Assembly (NCBI GenBank): GCA_018436725.1
Contig: JAHDKT010000008.1
Location: forward strand, 62,001 to 126,000
Reading direction: 5' to 3'
DNA: 64,000 nt
Source: Synergistaceae bacterium
GTDB lineage: Bacteria > Synergistota > Synergistia > Synergistales > Aminobacteriaceae
The first letter of the stretch is position 1. The number at the start of each line of letters is the position of its first letter. Shown here in pieces: positions 21,887-28,716 of the stretch. Below the pieces are notes generated by a model. The model ran no database searches, was not told the DNA's origin, and worked only from the letters and a program-made list of their open reading frames with translations. The position numbers and the translations under genes were made by a program.

Positions 21887-21937
21887 GACGCAAAAGACCG
21901 GGGCGGGAATATATTTCCCGCCCCGGTCTTTTGCGTC
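21887..21937. terminator. Bidirectional terminator, perfect 23-bp stem
   Basis: The arms at 21887-21909 and 21915-21937 are exact complements with a 5-base loop (TATAT). T-runs on both strands let it end both the plus-strand binding-protein gene and the minus-strand envelope operon. Confidence 0.93.
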
Positions 21938-21961: not shown

Positions 21962-22459
21962 TCACACGTCCGGGCCGCCCAGCTCCAGCGCGATGTCCTC
22001 GGCGAGGAAGCTCGAGGCCTCGATCAGCCCCTCCTCGCCCTGGTGGGTGACTGCCTGGAAGCCTGAGTGGACGACGCCCGTCCGCACGTCGACCAGTCTG
22101 GCGGTGAGCGTGAAGACCGAGCCCGTCGCGTTCACCGAGCCGACGATGAGGTATTGCGCGCCCAGGACCTTACCGACCTTGATCGCCTTCTTCTCGTCGA
22201 CCAGTCCCGACAGCGAGAGTTTGTGCTCCGAGGCGATCTCGTTCATCCGGGAGGCTTCGAGGACGGTCCACGGCCCCCGGTTGACCAGCGCTCCCCTGAC
22301 GCGCTCCCCGACCGCGCCGCCGAGGTACGGCATGCACCCGACGGCCTGGAAGTCGGGGATGGCGATGAGCATCTCGGCCGTCGAAGGAAGAGGAGCGGCG
22401 AGGATGCTCGTTCCCAAGAGCAACAGCAGAATGAGCCGACACGCTTTTTTACAGGACAT
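21962..22459 (-). CDS. Exported CsgG/FlgO-like protein (last gene of the envelope operon)
   Basis: A 165-residue protein with a signal peptide (to about residue 28) and a single domain resembling CsgG/TolB-N/FlgO: MLIAIPDF at the start, VLEASRMNEI, then VGKVLGAQYLIVGSV and LTARLVDVRTGVV. The same pattern is repeated in the product at 23278-24447, so the two are paralogues. It has no lipobox. It is the last gene of an eight-gene minus-strand operon, ending at the strong terminator at 21887-21937. It should be in the periplasm or at the outer membrane; a role in building a surface or envelope structure is inferred from its relatives. Confidence 0.8.
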   Translation of the reverse strand: MSCKKACRLILLLLLGTSILAAPLPSTAEMLIAIPDFQAVGCMPYLGGAVGERVRGALVNRGPWTVLEASRMNEIASEHKLSLSGLVDEKKAIKVGKVLGAQYLIVGSVNATGSVFTLTARLVDVRTGVVHSGFQAVTHQGEEGLIEASSFLAEDIALELGGPDV

Positions 22460-22504
22460 CCTCGATCCCCCCTTTGCAGTAATGTCGTTTCAAATCCGCC
22501 GGTG

Positions 22505-23095
22505 TCATGCCGCCCTGAAGAACGAGAGTATCATGCGGGCCATTCCATCGACTTGGACCTTCAGCTTGGCTATAGCGTCCTTCAGCCCGGTCACCTCTCC
22601 GTCCACGAAGACCTTGCCGGAAGCGAACTCGAGTTCGTTGAGCGTTTCTTTCGCCTCCTTCGGCATCTTCGCCGTCGTGTAGGCGCGCGCCTTGTGGAAG
22701 CGGAGAACGTCGCCGAGACGTGTCCGTCCTTGCAGGATGCCCTTCGCGTCGCGGACCAGCAGTCTGTCGGTGATCATATCCTTTCCCAGTTTCTCCTCGA
22801 CGGCGAGAACGGTTTTGTAGTCACCTTTTCCTCCCGCGTGAAGGGAAACTTCGCTAGCAACGAGCGTGCGCATGCGTTCGCTCTCGTCCCAGAAACGTAC
22901 CGACATTTCATAGCACCTGTCAAGAACGGGGAGGATAAGATCGCGCCCCTGTTCGTACGTGCCGTTTCGCATCAGGCTCGCCCCTCCGACGAAGGATGCG
23001 GTGCACCCTCCCTCGCCGCTCACGGTCGTCGCGAGCTGGATGACCCGATCAAGGTTGCGGCCGGTGAGCGTGCCTTCTTTGAGGAAAACCTGCAC
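22505..23095 (-). CDS. Uncharacterised protein; open frame downstream of an in-frame TGA
   Basis: The open frame from GTG 23095 gives 196 residues of an unrecognised, mostly helical protein ending in VDGMARMILSFFRAA. The same frame continues upstream through a Gly/Ser-rich stretch and a TGA (23168-23170) into an apparent signal peptide starting at ATG 23251. The original gene probably ran 22505-23251, about 248 codons. No ribosome site of quality precedes GTG 23095, so without readthrough the protein may not be made or exported. It is either a nonsense-mutated gene, a recoded one or a sequence error. It has four Cys residues and no named domain. Confidence 0.6.
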   Translation of the reverse strand: MQVFLKEGTLTGRNLDRVIQLATTVSGEGGCTASFVGGASLMRNGTYEQGRDLILPVLDRCYEMSVRFWDESERMRTLVASEVSLHAGGKGDYKTVLAVEEKLGKDMITDRLLVRDAKGILQGRTRLGDVLRFHKARAYTTAKMPKEAKETLNELEFASGKVFVDGEVTGLKDAIAKLKVQVDGMARMILSFFRAA

Positions 23096-23167
23096 CAGCT
23101 TGTCGATTTCCGTCTGATCGGCCGCGGATATACTGTCGCCTCCGGAACCTCCGGAACCGCCGCCTCC

Positions 23168-23251
23168 TCAGCCGAACCCCGCGACAGGCGATAGAAGCAG
23201 CGCGCCGCCAAGTACAAAAATGCTTAGAAGAAGTACGAATTTCTTTCTCAT
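23168..23251 (-). other. Signal-peptide coding segment terminated by in-frame TGA
   Basis: ATG 23251 encodes MRKKFVLLLSIFVLGGALLL and a few more residues, a typical export signal. It then meets TGA at 23170-23168, in the same frame as the 22505-23095 open frame. The next codons encode GGGGSGGSGGDS, a linker often seen after a lipidated Cys. One base change (TGA to TGC or TGT) would give a Cys there, although the residue three before it is Gly and not the usual Leu of a lipobox. Confidence 0.7.
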
Positions 23252-23277
23252 TTTCGCCACATCCTTTCTGTTCTCAA

Positions 23278-24447
23278 TCACTGTTTGGGAATCATATCCT
23301 CCAGTTTCTTTGCAAGCGCCGCATCTATGGTCTTCAGAGCCGCGAGCTGTTCTTTCGCCCCCTGAAGATTTCCCCGCATGATCTGGGCAGTGCCCAGAAG
23401 AAAGCGGAGATTGCCGTTACCCGGCTGCTGTTGAAGCGCGGAAAGCAGTATCCCCGCGGCTTCGTCCGCTGCGCCGTTTTCGAGCAGAAGCTGTCCAAGA
23501 GCCAGATAGGCCGGAATATAGGCCTGATCGATTTGAATGGCCTCCAGAAAGAAGTCGGCGGCCTCCTCGATCCTCTTTCTGTTCTTGAATGCGGACCCCT
23601 TCAGGAAGAGCGCCTCGACGAGCTTCGGATCGAGTTCGAGCGCTTTGTCGAGCGGCGCCGTGGCCTTATGGTTGTCGCCGAGCAGGAAGTACGCTTTGCC
23701 GACGAGAAGGTGGGCTTCGGCGAAGGACGGTTCCCATGTGACCGCCTGCTGGGCCGCGAGCAGCGCGTCGGAGTAGCGCTTCGTCTGGAAGTGGAGTCCG
23801 GCGACGATGAAACGCAGAAGTCCGTTGCGCGGGCTGAGCTGCGTCATCTTCTCCCAGAACGGGAGCGACTTGCGGTATTCTCCCAGGTTGTAGTACCCGA
23901 GCGCTTCATAGAGGTAGTACTTGTAGTCGCTCGTCGGATCCCCTCGCGCAGGAGCGTCGCCGCTGATGAAGGCGAGGATATCCGCAGCCAGGTTTCTCGA
24001 CACGAGCGGCGTCTCGTCTTCCCCCTGTTTCGAGGTCCGTTCGAAGCTCGCGAGCACGCGGCCGCTCTCGACGTCGACAAGCCGCGCCGTCGCCACGAGA
24101 AGGGCGCCGAACCTGCTGACCGCGCCGAGGATGAAATAGCGCGCGCCGACGAGCTTCCCCGCCTTCGCCGCCGTCGCGGTCTCCACGACTCCGGACATGG
24201 CAAGCCGCTGTTGCCTGGCGACCTCGGCGACGCGGGAGCGCTCGACAAGCGTAATGTCCCTGTTCCCTGCAAGCGATGTGGAGACGATGTCCCCGACCGT
24301 TGCGCCGAGGTGGAAGCTCGTTCCCTGGGCGAGAAATGGGTGCACGGCGACGGTCATCTGCGCCGCCGAGGATACCTCCGGCAGGCTGAACAGGGCCAGG
24401 AGCAGCAACAGCAGCGCGTTCGCCTGTACGATGCGTCCTCTTCTCAT
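23278..24447 (-). CDS. Exported CsgG-like/TPR protein
   Basis: A 389-residue protein with a signal peptide ending near VSSAA. An N-terminal CsgG/FlgO-like domain (about 30-160; LVERSRVAEVARQQ, VGARYFILGAV, TARLVDVESGRV) precedes a C-terminal array of tetratricopeptide repeats (about 175-370; for example KSLPFWEKMTQLSPRNGLLR and FAEAHLLVGKAYFLLGD). The N-terminal domain is paralogous to the whole 21962-22459 protein. TPRs suggest a scaffold for protein contacts in the periplasm. It is one of eight tightly spaced genes (gaps 3-45 bp). Confidence 0.83.
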   Translation of the reverse strand: MRRGRIVQANALLLLLLALFSLPEVSSAAQMTVAVHPFLAQGTSFHLGATVGDIVSTSLAGNRDITLVERSRVAEVARQQRLAMSGVVETATAAKAGKLVGARYFILGAVSRFGALLVATARLVDVESGRVLASFERTSKQGEDETPLVSRNLAADILAFISGDAPARGDPTSDYKYYLYEALGYYNLGEYRKSLPFWEKMTQLSPRNGLLRFIVAGLHFQTKRYSDALLAAQQAVTWEPSFAEAHLLVGKAYFLLGDNHKATAPLDKALELDPKLVEALFLKGSAFKNRKRIEEAADFFLEAIQIDQAYIPAYLALGQLLLENGAADEAAGILLSALQQQPGNGNLRFLLGTAQIMRGNLQGAKEQLAALKTIDAALAKKLEDMIPKQ

Positions 24448-24484
24448 GAGGGGAACCTCCTCTCCGTCGAATGATCTGCGCTCG

Positions 24485-25204
24485 TCATCTGCTCTTCTGG
24501 CTCCATCTATGGCTGACCGCGTCGTACGTGTACACCGTGTCCGCAGTGAATATGGACGCTTTGTATCCGTCGATGATGCACGCCTGCGGCGATATTCCTT
24601 CCTTGACGACCCACTGGTGGATCGTCATGTCGTAAAGCACCAGGTCGGGATCGGACCACGCCGCTGCGAGTACGTCGCCCGCCTGCGCTTTTTTCAGCGC
24701 GCCGAAGGGGAAGAACTGCGAGAAGAGCCATTTCCCGAGGACGGGATCGTAGACTACCAGCCCCTCCTCGCCTGTCAGTATCGTCATTCCGCGCGAAAGC
24801 GACGCCCCTGTGAGTTTCCACGGAATGTAGTCGCTCCGCAGCCACCTCTGATTCTTCGCGTCGAAGATCGCGGCCTCGTTCTCGTTCCACACGAGCGCGT
24901 ACTCGTCGGAGAGCGCTCCCAGAAGCGTCCGGAAGTCGCTCTCGGAGAGCCACTGCTGCGTCCGCACGTCGTAGACCCAAGCGGCGTCCTCGCTCCAGAC
25001 AAGTGCGAGGTGATTGTGCACGCGGTACCCGCTTGTTCTGAAGTTGTTGAGGATGGACTGCCGTTTCAACACCGGATCGTGAACACGCACCGTGTACGCG
25101 TCGATGAAAACCTGCACCTCCGCGAACGCCGGGACCGTCCCAACGAGGAGTCCCGCGAGGAAGATAGCGAGCGCCCCGAAAGATACCCGTTTGCGTGCGT
25201 TCAT
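24485..25204 (-). CDS. Exported protein with repeated YD/W motifs (beta-propeller-like)
   Basis: A 239-residue protein with a signal peptide ending at PAFA. The mature part has five or so repeats of a pattern like AWVYDVRTQQWL, AAIFDAKNQRWL, LVVYDPVLGKWL, LVLYDMTIHQWV and VYTYDAVSHRW, spaced about 40 residues apart. This suggests a small Kelch-like or propeller-like beta fold. I cannot name a family. It is encoded inside the eight-gene envelope operon. Confidence 0.75.
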   Translation of the reverse strand: MNARKRVSFGALAIFLAGLLVGTVPAFAEVQVFIDAYTVRVHDPVLKRQSILNNFRTSGYRVHNHLALVWSEDAAWVYDVRTQQWLSESDFRTLLGALSDEYALVWNENEAAIFDAKNQRWLRSDYIPWKLTGASLSRGMTILTGEEGLVVYDPVLGKWLFSQFFPFGALKKAQAGDVLAAAWSDPDLVLYDMTIHQWVVKEGISPQACIIDGYKASIFTADTVYTYDAVSHRWSQKSR

Positions 25205-25249
25205 TGGATACCAGCTCCCTTCATAATGAGGTACGTCCGATACTGTGCT

Positions 25250-26035
25250 TCACTCTTTGCTCAGACGGAGCGTATTGCCTTCCACGCTCTCTTCGCGGAG
25301 ATCCGTCCTCTTGCCCAGGAGTGCGGCAAGCAGCTGCCGCGCCGAGCCGGAAAAGGAAACGTCGATCTCCGCCCTGCCTCCGGCGAAGCGCGCCACGGAG
25401 GCCGAGGACGCCCCCGCGTCGCGGCAGCTTGCGGCAAGAGCGTGCGCTTCGGAGAACGAACGAGCGGGAGCGATCACCAGGAACGTCGCTCCGGCCGTAT
25501 CCGCAGATTGAGGAGGCGCCTTTCCGAGGAGCGCCGCAGCAGCGGAACGTGTCGCTGTTTCCACCGCTTTCCGTGCCGCTTCGTCCGCAGTGTACCCGAT
25601 CTCCTTTGCCGAAGCGCTTCCTGCGGCGATCTGGCGGGCGTTCGACGCCGTGCAGGCCGTCGCCGAGACGGTCGCCATGGCGGTGAAGAGTCCGAATTCG
25701 TTCCGCACGGGCTGCGGCAGAGAGATGGAACCGGAAAGAAGGACGGAGAAACTGAATGTCCTGCCCAGCTCCATAATCGCCTCGACATTGCCCTCAAGCG
25801 CCAGGATTGCCGCCTTGTTTTCGCGGATCCTTTCGAGCTGTCTTTCGTCGACGGCCTTATACCCTTCGTCCAAAAGCGCCCGGATCAGGATCGACCTCGC
25901 GAGCGCGGCATGCGACGGCCCCTTCACGAGGACGGCGATGGTCTTTCCCTTCGGCAGTTCGGCCCGGGCTGCGACTGATGGAACAAGCATAAAGATCGCG
26001 AAGGCCGCCATGCAGATCGCGAGTGTTTTTCTCAT
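25250..26035 (-). CDS. Exported TolB/FlgT-like protein, paralogue of the 26510-27643 product
   Basis: A 261-residue protein with a signal peptide ending near VAARA. The central domain (IAVLVKGP, ALLDEGYKAVDE, IMELGRTFSFSVLLSG) and the C-terminal segment SFSEAHALAASCRDAGASSA then RAEIDVSFSGSARQLLAALL match by eye the middle and last parts of the product of 26510-27643. They therefore look like gene duplicates, this one lacking the FlgT-N-like domain. It probably acts in the periplasm with the other operon products. Confidence 0.72.
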   Translation of the reverse strand: MRKTLAICMAAFAIFMLVPSVAARAELPKGKTIAVLVKGPSHAALARSILIRALLDEGYKAVDERQLERIRENKAAILALEGNVEAIMELGRTFSFSVLLSGSISLPQPVRNEFGLFTAMATVSATACTASNARQIAAGSASAKEIGYTADEAARKAVETATRSAAAALLGKAPPQSADTAGATFLVIAPARSFSEAHALAASCRDAGASSASVARFAGGRAEIDVSFSGSARQLLAALLGKRTDLREESVEGNTLRLSKE

Positions 26036-26041
26036 AACCGT

Positions 26042-26506
26042 TCACCTCACCTCGACGCGCACGATTCTGCTTTCGGTGAAAAAGCGCTTCAGAGGAACCG
26101 TCACTTCTACCGTATACACCCCGTTCGACACGCCTTGGAAATCAACCTGCCCGTCGACGACCTCGCCCTCTATCTCGATCGAGCTGATCTTCTCGGGAAG
26201 TCCGTGACGGATCTCGTAGAGGAGGCAGAGAAGGTTCCGGCGCGCATCGGTCAGGGCGCCGCGTTTCGCGAGCATCTGATCGCGGGAGGACGGGGAGGAG
26301 AGCGGCGCCTTCCCCTGCGAGGTCACCGATTCGCCCTTCCAGTCGACGACGCCGAAGCGGAAGACCTGGATATCTTCCGATCCGCTCTTCGCCTCCGCAA
26401 TGGACTGAAAGAGAGCCGCCATATCCTCCTCCGCAGGAGGCGATGCGAAGGCTGCGGAGGAAAGGAGAGCGATCAGAAGGCAAAAGAGAACTCTGCGGAC
26501 ACTCAC
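26042..26506 (-). CDS. Small exported LPP20/FlgP-like protein
   Basis: A 154-residue protein with a signal peptide to about residue 22. A single domain holds the LPP20-type helix DQMLAKRGALTDARRNLL followed by beta strands (VSNGVYTVEVTVPLKRF). It is paralogous to the longer product of 27648-28583, which has LLARRGAIVDLQRNLL at the same place. No lipid-anchoring Cys is visible. LPP20-family proteins include FlgP of polar flagella. The start lies three bases after the stop of the upstream gene. Confidence 0.72.
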   Translation of the reverse strand: MSVRRVLFCLLIALLSSAAFASPPAEEDMAALFQSIAEAKSGSEDIQVFRFGVVDWKGESVTSQGKAPLSSPSSRDQMLAKRGALTDARRNLLCLLYEIRHGLPEKISSIEIEGEVVDGQVDFQGVSNGVYTVEVTVPLKRFFTESRIVRVEVR

Positions 26507-26509
26507 CGT

Positions 26510-27643
26510 CTATCGCCCCTTTCGTCCTTCCACCGTTCCCGAGGTAATCCGTGTGATTTCCACGCCGAGAGCCTCCAGCGCGATGGCGATCTCTTCGGCG
26601 GAAGTCTCCGCCGACACATCCAGTTCGAGCGTCCTGTTCGCGTAGGCGCGCTGGTAGACTCCGTTGACGCCGTTTACCTCTCCCAGGCTGTCTCGAAGGG
26701 ATCTGGCTTCGCTGAACGAAAGGTCGCTCACGCTCACCTTGAACGACCTTCCGGGTATGCCGCCCGAAGAGCCGCCGACAAGGGTATAGGCCACGGTATG
26801 GAGCAGCGATCCCGCCATTTTCGGAGTCAGTTTTTGGAACGCCTTGAGCGCCGCGTCCCCCGGCGACGTTCCCTGGACTCTCAGTTCGGAGCCGTCGGCG
26901 CCGATGACATGCGCCGTCTGCGTGATGATCGCCTTGAGCTGGAGCTGCGAGTTGACCGCGTAGAGCATCGTGCCCGCGACCTTGTTTTTCGTTGCCGTGT
27001 TCGCCTGCGCCTTCCCGTGGATCAGCACGTCGGACTGAAAGCTCCGCGCTAGCTCCTGAAGCGTGGTCGTGTCACCCGAGATTTTCGCCGCCTCGATCTC
27101 TCCCTTGCGGATTGCCCCGGACTGCCCGGGGTCGACAAGCATGTACCCGGCCTTCTGAAACGCTTTGAGCACCTCGCTCTCCGCCGTCGAGAGGAACTGG
27201 CGTTCTCCGTCGACAACCTCGTCGATGAGCACCATGATCCTCGGGTTGCCCAGCGCGTCGATCACCGCCGGCCCGAGGACGCCGTCGAGCGCCTTTGAAG
27301 ATACGGTACACTGCGCCGTCAGGCGGAGGATGCCGTCGTTCGTCCGCTCCTCCTTCAGATTGTCCGTCGCCGTTACCAGCCCTTCCGAACGAGAGAATAC
27401 CTTATCGCGCACCACCTCGAAATCCTTCATCTCGGTGATGCCCTGAACATACACGCCGATTCCCTTTTCGAGCGCGTTTCTGTGGAGCTGGCGCCGAGCT
27501 TCCTCGCGCGCGCGGGCGACGTCGCCGTTCACGATCGCGGCCATTCCCTCCGCGTCGACGACGATCTTCTCCGTTGCGGATACAAGCGCAGGGAAAAAGA
27601 GGAGAAGAATCGCGCATACTACGGAAAAGGGTTTCCGTCTCAT
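26510..27643 (-). CDS. Exported FlgT-like protein (FlgT N-terminal, TolB-like and C-terminal domains)
   Basis: A 377-residue protein with a signal peptide ending near VSA. Residues about 24-120 resemble the FlgT N-terminal domain (GDVARAREEARRQL, then FEVVRDKVFSRSEGLV and LRLTAQCTVSSKAL). The middle resembles TolB/CsgG-type folds (PRIMVLIDEV, LARSFQSDVLIHGKA). The C-terminal region carries SFSEARSLRDSLGEV and LELDVSAETSAEEIAIALEAL. In Vibrio, FlgT works with FlgO and FlgP around the flagellar outer-membrane ring. No flagellar gene is present here, so a different envelope structure is likely. Confidence 0.78.
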   Translation of the reverse strand: MRRKPFSVVCAILLLFFPALVSATEKIVVDAEGMAAIVNGDVARAREEARRQLHRNALEKGIGVYVQGITEMKDFEVVRDKVFSRSEGLVTATDNLKEERTNDGILRLTAQCTVSSKALDGVLGPAVIDALGNPRIMVLIDEVVDGERQFLSTAESEVLKAFQKAGYMLVDPGQSGAIRKGEIEAAKISGDTTTLQELARSFQSDVLIHGKAQANTATKNKVAGTMLYAVNSQLQLKAIITQTAHVIGADGSELRVQGTSPGDAALKAFQKLTPKMAGSLLHTVAYTLVGGSSGGIPGRSFKVSVSDLSFSEARSLRDSLGEVNGVNGVYQRAYANRTLELDVSAETSAEEIAIALEALGVEITRITSGTVEGRKGR

Positions 27644-27647
27644 GACG

Positions 27648-28583
27648 TCACCGTTTGACCACCGTCACGCGGCAGGGGATACGGAAGTCGTAGGAGCTGC
27701 CGCGCACCTTCGCAGCGTCCGCATTGCTGATGACGAGGTCGACGTTCTGCGGCGCGACGGTCCGAACGGCTTTCGCGACGATCGGGGTGGAGGCTATTCT
27801 GGGCGCGCCCTTCGCATAGGCGAGGTTCGTGTGGTAATCGCACAGTCCGGAAGCGAGGAAGCGCTCCGCGTCCACGAAGTCGATTCCGTACACTTCTTTG
27901 CCGTTTTCGTCGACGACGCGGAAGATCATCGCGGGAATAAGCGTAAGATGCGTCGCGTCGATCAGCAGCCCCGATGCGCCGATCTTGCCCGCCGGAGGCG
28001 TCGGGGGGACGGGTTTTTGCCCCGGAGCCTTGGGAAGCCCGGGCAACACGGCGGTACGCACCTTGTCGAGCTTTACGCGCCCGGTGACGGTGTAGATCTC
28101 GCCGTCCCAGGAAGCGTCCGATATTTCGACGCCCTTGATGAGTCCCTGGACTTCCGTTTTCACGGTGTCGTTCGCCATGAAGTCGGTCATCGTGGTCTTC
28201 GCGTCCACGCGCACGCCCTGGATCGCTTCAAGGAGATTGCGCTGAAGGTCTACGATGGCTCCTCTGCGGGCAAGCAGTTTCCCCTGCGCGGTCTTCTCCT
28301 TGCCGGTCGGGGCGACGGCCTGTCCCGAGGCCTCGACATAGTCGTCGGTCCAGTTGATGCGGGCGAACTCGGTCCCGACGATCAACGCGGACGGGGAAGG
28401 AGCGGGAAGAGCAGGTCCCGCGTCGAACGCCGTCGTGACATCCACGGCAGGCGCTGCCGTCACGGTATCGCTTCTCTCCGGAACTTCCTCGATCGGCGGA
28501 AGAAACACCTCCTCCGTGGCGAATGCCGGAATACAGAAAACAAACAGAAGCAGAAGGCAGGAAATACATCTCTTCTGAAGCAT
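27648..28583 (-). CDS. Exported LPP20/FlgP-like protein, first gene of the envelope operon
   Basis: About 311 residues from ATG 28583, which has AGGAGGGG upstream. A signal peptide ends near PAFA and is followed by a Pro/Ala-rich linker. An LPP20-like domain contains LLARRGAIVDLQRNLLEAIQGV and an IYTVTGRVKLDKV strand, then a Pro-rich spacer and a C-terminal domain with GIDFVDAERFLASGLCDY and a repeated LVISNADAAKVRG segment. It begins a transcript of eight genes; a consensus-like promoter lies at 28688-28716. Confidence 0.76.
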   Translation of the reverse strand: MLQKRCISCLLLLFVFCIPAFATEEVFLPPIEEVPERSDTVTAAPAVDVTTAFDAGPALPAPSPSALIVGTEFARINWTDDYVEASGQAVAPTGKEKTAQGKLLARRGAIVDLQRNLLEAIQGVRVDAKTTMTDFMANDTVKTEVQGLIKGVEISDASWDGEIYTVTGRVKLDKVRTAVLPGLPKAPGQKPVPPTPPAGKIGASGLLIDATHLTLIPAMIFRVVDENGKEVYGIDFVDAERFLASGLCDYHTNLAYAKGAPRIASTPIVAKAVRTVAPQNVDLVISNADAAKVRGSSYDFRIPCRVTVVKR

Positions 28584-28687: not shown

Positions 28688-28716
28688 ATGATACTCTTTT
28701 TAGCGCGGTTTTTCAA
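28688..28716 (-). promoter_or_regulatory. Promoter of the eight-gene envelope operon
   Basis: On the minus strand TTGAAA (28716-28711), a 17-bp spacer and TATCAT (28693-28688) precede the first gene by about 100 bp. Spacing and boxes fit sigma-70. Confidence 0.75.

Follow-up and report, generated by a model that had tools for sequence, protein, structure and literature searches.

An in-frame TGA in an exported FlgP/FlgT-like operon of Synergistota points to a selenoprotein of the cell envelope

The A–H operon, its protein families, and its conservation

The DNA analyzed here, hereafter the window, is a stretch of 64,000 nucleotides (G000:C59:62001-126000) from the 4.78-Mb genome (G000) of a Synergistaceae bacterium, and the subject of this study is a minus-strand operon at 21962-28583, whose genes are lettered A to H in transcription order, and in particular its seventh gene, G, the frame of which is broken by a single TGA. 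Open reading frames (ORFs) called in the window bore out the eight co-directional genes of an earlier sequence-only reading, which had put their gaps at 3-45 base pairs (bp); the gaps from A to H were 4, 3, 6, 45, 37, 26, and 45 bp. The translations likewise bore out that signal peptides are evident in seven of the eight products, while that of G directly precedes the in-frame TGA. For the promoter claimed at 28688-28716 and the terminator claimed at 21887-21937, scanning recovered a promoter-like site and a terminator-like hairpin. An Rfam scan of the window gave no match. The features are as follows.

27648-28583, minus strand: gene A, exported FlgP/LPP20-like protein, 311 amino acids
26510-27643, minus strand: gene B, exported protein with a FlgT_N-like domain, 377 amino acids; marker gene for the cluster and for a sister operon
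26042-26506, minus strand: gene C, short exported paralogue of A
25250-26035, minus strand: gene D, exported; paralogous to the C-terminal half of B
24485-25204, minus strand: gene E, exported and propeller-like, with a weak Kelch motif (Kelch_1, 0.0042, below cut-off)
23278-24447, minus strand: gene F, exported protein with a CsgG/LpoB-type domain and TPR repeats
22505-23251, minus strand: gene G, exported TPR-like selenoprotein candidate; frame broken by one TGA
21962-22459, minus strand: gene H, short exported CsgG/LpoB-type domain, 165 amino acids; paralogue of the N-terminal part of F
23168-23170, minus strand: in-frame TGA, codon 28 of G, proposed selenocysteine (U) in the context V-A-G-F-G-U-G-G-G-G
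23140-23156, minus strand: hairpin TTCCGGA[GGT]TCCGGAG, resembling a selenocysteine insertion sequence (SECIS); apical loop 19-21 nucleotides after the TGA
28688-28716, minus strand: promoter-like site TTGAAA-17-TATCAT, from a sequence scan, consensus match only
21889-21935, no strand assigned: terminator-like perfect 20-bp palindromic hairpin, from a scan; the downstream plus-strand gene converges on it

The three paralogous pairs first seen by eye were recovered by BLASTP (F/H, 6e-27; B/D, 3e-11; A/C, 2e-7). A matched 9hmf_C, a flagellar periplasmic scaffold lipoprotein chain of Campylobacter jejuni, at 1.4e-11 by sequence and other FlgP chains at 6e-4 to 0.0075, the Vibrio FlgP chain 8z5n lying at 0.0075, and its proposed relation to FlgP was thereby upheld. 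From the chain name, the length, and the FlgP chains also matched by A, we infer that 9hmf_C is C. jejuni FlgP. Against Pfam LPP20, A scored 14.2 bits, under the gathering score of 25.9. The FlgT likeness of B found support at the level of its family, in which the best relative matched FlgT_N at 3.7e-9 and eight of ten members matched, whereas the window copy (2.8e-4, 21.8 bits) fell below the curated cut-off of 28.8; the structure model of B was too poor for use (predicted local distance difference test score, pLDDT, 53). The window B (26510-27643) also matched the NCBIfam model LipL46, a Leptospira lipoprotein, at 1.5e-19 though far under the model cut-off, an apparent distant family link from Synergistota to spirochaete envelope proteins.

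F (9.7e-9, 35.3 bits) and H (6.1e-9, 35.9 bits) both exceeded the CsgG gathering score of 20.8, and F additionally matched TPR_2 at 6.5e-18. Their assignment to the CsgG family therefore stood, although as a short CsgG/LpoB-type domain and not as a curli pore. The idea of a curli-type secretion channel had to be given up, since H covers only positions 47-100 of the 210 of CsgG and has LpoB as its nearest solved structure (1.1e-5); no curli genes were seen alongside the operon. For E, no sequence relative was found in the PDB.

In tblastn searches with all eight products, the order A-B-C-D-E-F-G-H was kept at L003/L038, L039, L006/L040, L042, L043, L088, and L090, and at L041 with one additional gene between E and F. 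The block order is thus conserved across several Synergistota families, which settled in the affirmative the synteny check proposed with the sequence-only reading. Genus g30 has a D-E-F-G-H set, with A divergent and B located elsewhere in the genome. By a count of the hit list, 79 of the 188 Synergistota genomes have a strong B-type gene. Many Synergistota also possess a sister operon of A-, B-, C-, and D-like genes with two other CsgG-type genes, which in G002 directly adjoins the A–H operon on the opposite strand; it was located at L038:790-6490, L048, L049, and L050, one of its CsgG genes encoding a CsgG-TPR protein of about 500 amino acids. A contig filed under a Phycisphaerales (Planctomycetes) metagenome-assembled genome (MAG), L004 (LVBB01000095.1), carries the operon as well and is probably mis-binned, because its F is 93% identical to a Synergistota copy.

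The in-frame TGA of gene G

The sequence of G runs MRKKFVLLLSIFVLGGALLLSPVAGFG-TGA-GGGGSGGSGG..., the TGA being codon 28 (23170-23168). The sequence-only reading mentioned this codon in passing, and the conserved, SECIS-bearing recoding site went unseen. Homologues of G were gathered from the 188 genomes and a contig collection, and 23 were judged convincing. Of these, 16 from nine lineages carry a single TGA, always at one identical position shortly behind the signal peptide, in the contexts GFG-TGA, SFG-TGA, AFG-TGA, once GFC-TGA, and once ALG-TGA, and a Gly-rich stretch always follows. Among the carriers are two closed genomes, each a single contig, as well as L083 and L087, both distant paralogues. 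A sequencing error or pseudogene mutation, conceivable from the single assembly of the window alone, is refuted by this recurrence in 16 sequences, nine lineages, and closed genomes with the downstream frame conserved, and its probability is practically nil. An altered genetic code was also ruled out, as TGA terminates G itself and several other operon genes. Pattern matches to the FG-TGA-GG motif outside gene G were not TGA genes.

Three of the 23 homologues have CxC at the site (L068, AFGGCGCGGGG; L081 and L082, AFADCNCEG), that is, a Cys pair and not a single Cys, and the motif of L087 is U-G-C. Pairing of selenocysteine (Sec) with Cys between homologues is expected of selenoproteins (PMC9312934). 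TGA copies fall to either side of the deepest split drawn in the tree, and one copy with CxC is nested within a TGA clade, the deep branches being weakly supported. The paralogues L087 (G011:C27:7299-7985) and L083 (G071:C177:10495-11127), which keep the TGA and a strong hairpin, stand beside A-B-C-E-type genes without F and H. Two annotations were set aside for this region: Synergist-CTERM sorting, as the motif is N-terminal here, and the NCBIfam 'invert_tail' match in relatives of G, which reached 19 of 37 bits on the signal-peptide region and was taken as compositional.

The apical loop of a bacterial SECIS lies 16-37 nucleotides after the UGA (PMC10778597). An uninterrupted stem of 6-9 bp, capped by an apical loop that contains GG and lies at +16 to +33, is present in every one of the 16 TGA genes and in no TGA-less homologue (0 of 7). 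The stems, such as UUCCGGA[GGU]UCCGGAG (window), CUCCUCC[GGU]GGAGGAG (L073), CGGAGGC[GGU]GCCUCUG (L078), CUCCUC[GGUC]GAGGAG (L076), and GGCGACGGC[GGA]GCCGUCGUC (L087), vary widely in sequence among lineages while the pairing and the GG loop persist. The fdhF gene of Escherichia coli has a GGUC loop at the same distance from its UGA. Against a null of random synonymous codons for the same peptide and gene, single genes gave P values of 0.006-0.18, and the combination over nine lineages, using the worst value per lineage, gave P = 4e-6, compared with 0.76 for the TGA-less homologues.

The codon could alternatively be a true stop, so that a short leader is made and the downstream domain arises in the cytoplasm from an internal start, e.g., the GTG at 23095. 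Such a start is present (ORF 22505-23095), and re-initiation within operons is known in bacteria. The linker that runs from the TGA to the first internal start, however, showed 26, 29, and 66 differences at codon positions 1, 2, and 3 (eight non-independent pairs), and its length differences between homologues were whole codons; the third-position bias indicates that the linker is translated in the same frame and thus counts against termination with internal re-initiation. The CxC and no-Cys relatives moreover have one uninterrupted reading frame, the SECIS-like hairpins occur in every TGA gene and in no others, and every other product of the operon is exported. We consequently regard a true stop as very improbable.

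The genome of the window encodes SelA (545.9 bits, G000:C102:113397-114749), SelB directly downstream of it (356.3 bits, G000:C102:114845-116755), and tRNA-Sec (72.8 bits, G000:C10:36237-36330), and the phylum Synergistetes has been described as rich in selenoproteins (PMC5029168). Because the TGA is conserved, SECIS-like hairpins are found in all TGA genes only, and the Sec machinery is present, we assign G as a selenoprotein with high confidence, short of certainty. G matches none of the 87 prokaryotic selenoprotein families tabulated in PMC9312934. It is very probably a previously undescribed exported TPR-like selenoprotein, and it probably represents a new family. At another locus of the genome (G000:C35:50072-52236), two neighboring matches to the SelA superfamily scored under the selA cut-off; one of them is interrupted by a TGA and a TAG. 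Loss of the Sec machinery, first suggested by tRNA-Sec as the reason for the TGA-less copy of G123, was ruled out, since that genome has selA and selB.

The selenocysteine arm and its candidate partners

The mature G protein probably begins with F-G-U, since the Phe is preceded in most copies by small-x-small residues (VAG, VRG, STS, ASA). A different possibility is that the lipobox +1 residue that receives the lipid is the Sec, giving a selenolipoprotein anchored through selenium. The UGA does end the signal peptide and is preceded in most copies by Gly, as at lipobox position -1, and a lipid-anchored TPR protein would suit an outer-membrane scaffold. Phe at -2 and the lack of Leu at -3 are nevertheless atypical, and genus g30 has a canonical lipobox Cys four residues before the Sec (IVSC-AFG-U in L073, VAGC-AFG-U in L074, LAGC-AFG-U in L078). 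Since Sec is kept there, lipidation is not its only role and Sec is not simply the lipidation residue; we consider anchoring through selenium improbable.

The domain behind the Gly linker is all-helical and TPR-like, with Pfam TPR matches in up to eight of 11 relatives; a fold search with the low-confidence model of G returned TPR-like matches only, the best being MamA (E = 0.05), and none was significant. The CxC and UGC variants (L068, L081, L087) suggest a redox pair at the site. Cysteines conserved in the operon products, namely A C304 (15/16), A C248 (12/16), and B C112 (9/10), are possible partners of the Sec of G.

A further potential partner is protein I, an exported protein of about 400 amino acids with no Pfam family, which 14 genomes encode either next to the operon, inside it, or at another locus (L039:4696-5946, L041:9714-11087, L045:5508-6716, L090:6895-8091, L040:3076-4419; L100-L114). 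Its C-terminal Gly-rich tail, where read, holds one or two Cys (CxC, CxxxC), as in GGGGGDCGCH and GGGGCSDGCH. All 14 genomes with protein I also carry G, while the genome of the window is without it. Protein I in this way mirrors G with its Sec/Cys-Gly arm, and where present it may act as a partner.

A possible flagellar scaffold and its comparison with known systems

FlgO, FlgP, and FlgT are components of the outer-membrane H-ring of Vibrio, and in C. jejuni FlgP forms the basal disk and TPR proteins occur in the medial and proximal disks (PMC7990780). The sequence-only reading had stated that flagellar genes are missing; this is true of the neighborhood, but the organism itself encodes FlhA (G000:C46:92889-94883). 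FlhA was found in 72 of the 79 B-carrying genomes and in 58 of the 109 without B (Fisher 1e-8, uncorrected for phylogeny). The idea of a surface or envelope assembly put forward in that reading stands, but the presence of FlhA in the genome and the co-occurrence of B with FlhA make the flagellar link stronger than was first thought. On these sequence relations we lean slightly towards the operon building a FlgP/FlgT-like flagellar scaffold, in which case G would act within a scaffold at the flagellar outer membrane.

The operon may instead specify, with G still a selenoprotein, a non-flagellar envelope or surface assembly, such as an outer-membrane scaffold, a lipoprotein export system, or a regulator of peptidoglycan synthases acting via the LpoB-like domains. 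LpoB as the closest solved structure of H, the lack of linkage to flagellar genes, the 58 flagellated Synergistota genomes without B, and the restriction of protein I, with its signal peptide and Gly-Cys tail, to G carriers are in keeping with this alternative, whereas the match of A to the Campylobacter scaffold chain, the FlgT_N-like domain of B, and the rarity of B in FlhA-less genomes (7/79) speak for the flagellum. We regard the non-flagellar alternative as credible, although it falls short of an even chance.

Taken together, we consider it probable that G is a selenoprotein within an exported outer-membrane/periplasmic scaffold of the FlgP/FlgT/FlgO kind, most likely located around the flagellar motor. 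The sequences strongly support the conserved UGA, the Cys counterparts, the SECIS-like hairpin, the Sec machinery, the conservation of the operon, and the relation of A to FlgP; Sec insertion itself, the cleavage site, the flagellar location, and the redox or cross-linking role are inferred. The products of A to H would form the scaffold; SelB and Sec-tRNA would decode UGA codon 28 of G, guided by the hairpin just downstream; and G would be exported via its signal peptide and probably cut just before F-G-U, so that Sec would lie two residues in from the new N-terminus, within a flexible Gly/Ser arm joined to the TPR-like helical domain. Our working hypothesis is that the selenol is redox-active, bonds reversibly (Se-S) with a cysteine in one of the scaffold proteins, or keeps a scaffold cysteine reduced, and that the assembly or stability of the scaffold would thereby respond to redox state. 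In a bolder form, the arm would provide a redox-switchable Se-S or Se-Se bond in a ring of the flagellar outer membrane, perhaps to protein I through its Gly-Cys tail where that protein is present, and no selenoprotein would have been known before G from a flagellar motor or an envelope scaffold; this form is speculative and rather unlikely.

Several observations weigh against this proposal. The B–FlhA association statistic ignores phylogeny, the operon does not adjoin flagellar genes, and LPP20- and CsgG-type domains occur outside flagella too. Four of the 23 homologues (L044, L077, L079, L080) have neither Sec nor CxC at the site, and their genomes carry selA and selB or tRNA-Sec; the residue is thus dispensable in some lineages. 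The combined P rose to 0.03 under a stricter null that only permutes codons and narrows the range of loop positions, and the hairpin score was settled after the first hairpins had already been seen. G071 has a TGA copy, and SelA and SelB were not found in this 83% complete MAG. The AlphaFold model of G was also poor (pLDDT 60).

Selenocysteine is costly, and the bacterial selenoproteins known to us are almost without exception redox enzymes, which mostly adopt a thioredoxin-like fold. An exported selenoprotein of a structural operon would, if true, extend selenium chemistry to envelope assembly and offer a concrete, testable case. Standard annotation would call a stop and a truncated cytoplasmic protein, concealing the export signal of G. 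For flagellar biology, an uncharacterized Synergistota scaffold of the FlgP/FlgT kind is indicated.

The operon shares with the CsgG curli channel F and H products that exceed the CsgG family cut-off, but H spans only part of CsgG, is nearer to LpoB, and has no accompanying curli genes. Like the Vibrio H-ring, it comprises exported proteins, of which A is FlgP-like, B is FlgT_N-like, and F and H belong to the FlgO/CsgG/LpoB superfamily; it is set apart by its total of eight genes with three pairs of duplicates, by its CsgG-TPR fusion, propeller-like protein, and selenoprotein, by A and B of the window lying under the Pfam cut-offs, and by the lack of a known MotX/MotY context. As in the basal and medial disks of C. 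jejuni (FlgP, PflA, PflB), a FlgP homologue (1.4e-11) occurs alongside TPR scaffold proteins, although F and G are likened to PflA and PflB only as TPR proteins; we know of no selenoprotein in those disks. With known prokaryotic selenoproteins, G shares the in-frame UGA, the SECIS-like hairpin directly downstream, the Sec/Cys pairs, and the Sec machinery. None of the 87 families of PMC9312934 is TPR-like or a protein of a FlgP/CsgG operon, and the Sec of G would sit in a Gly-rich arm right after the signal peptide, in place of a thioredoxin fold.

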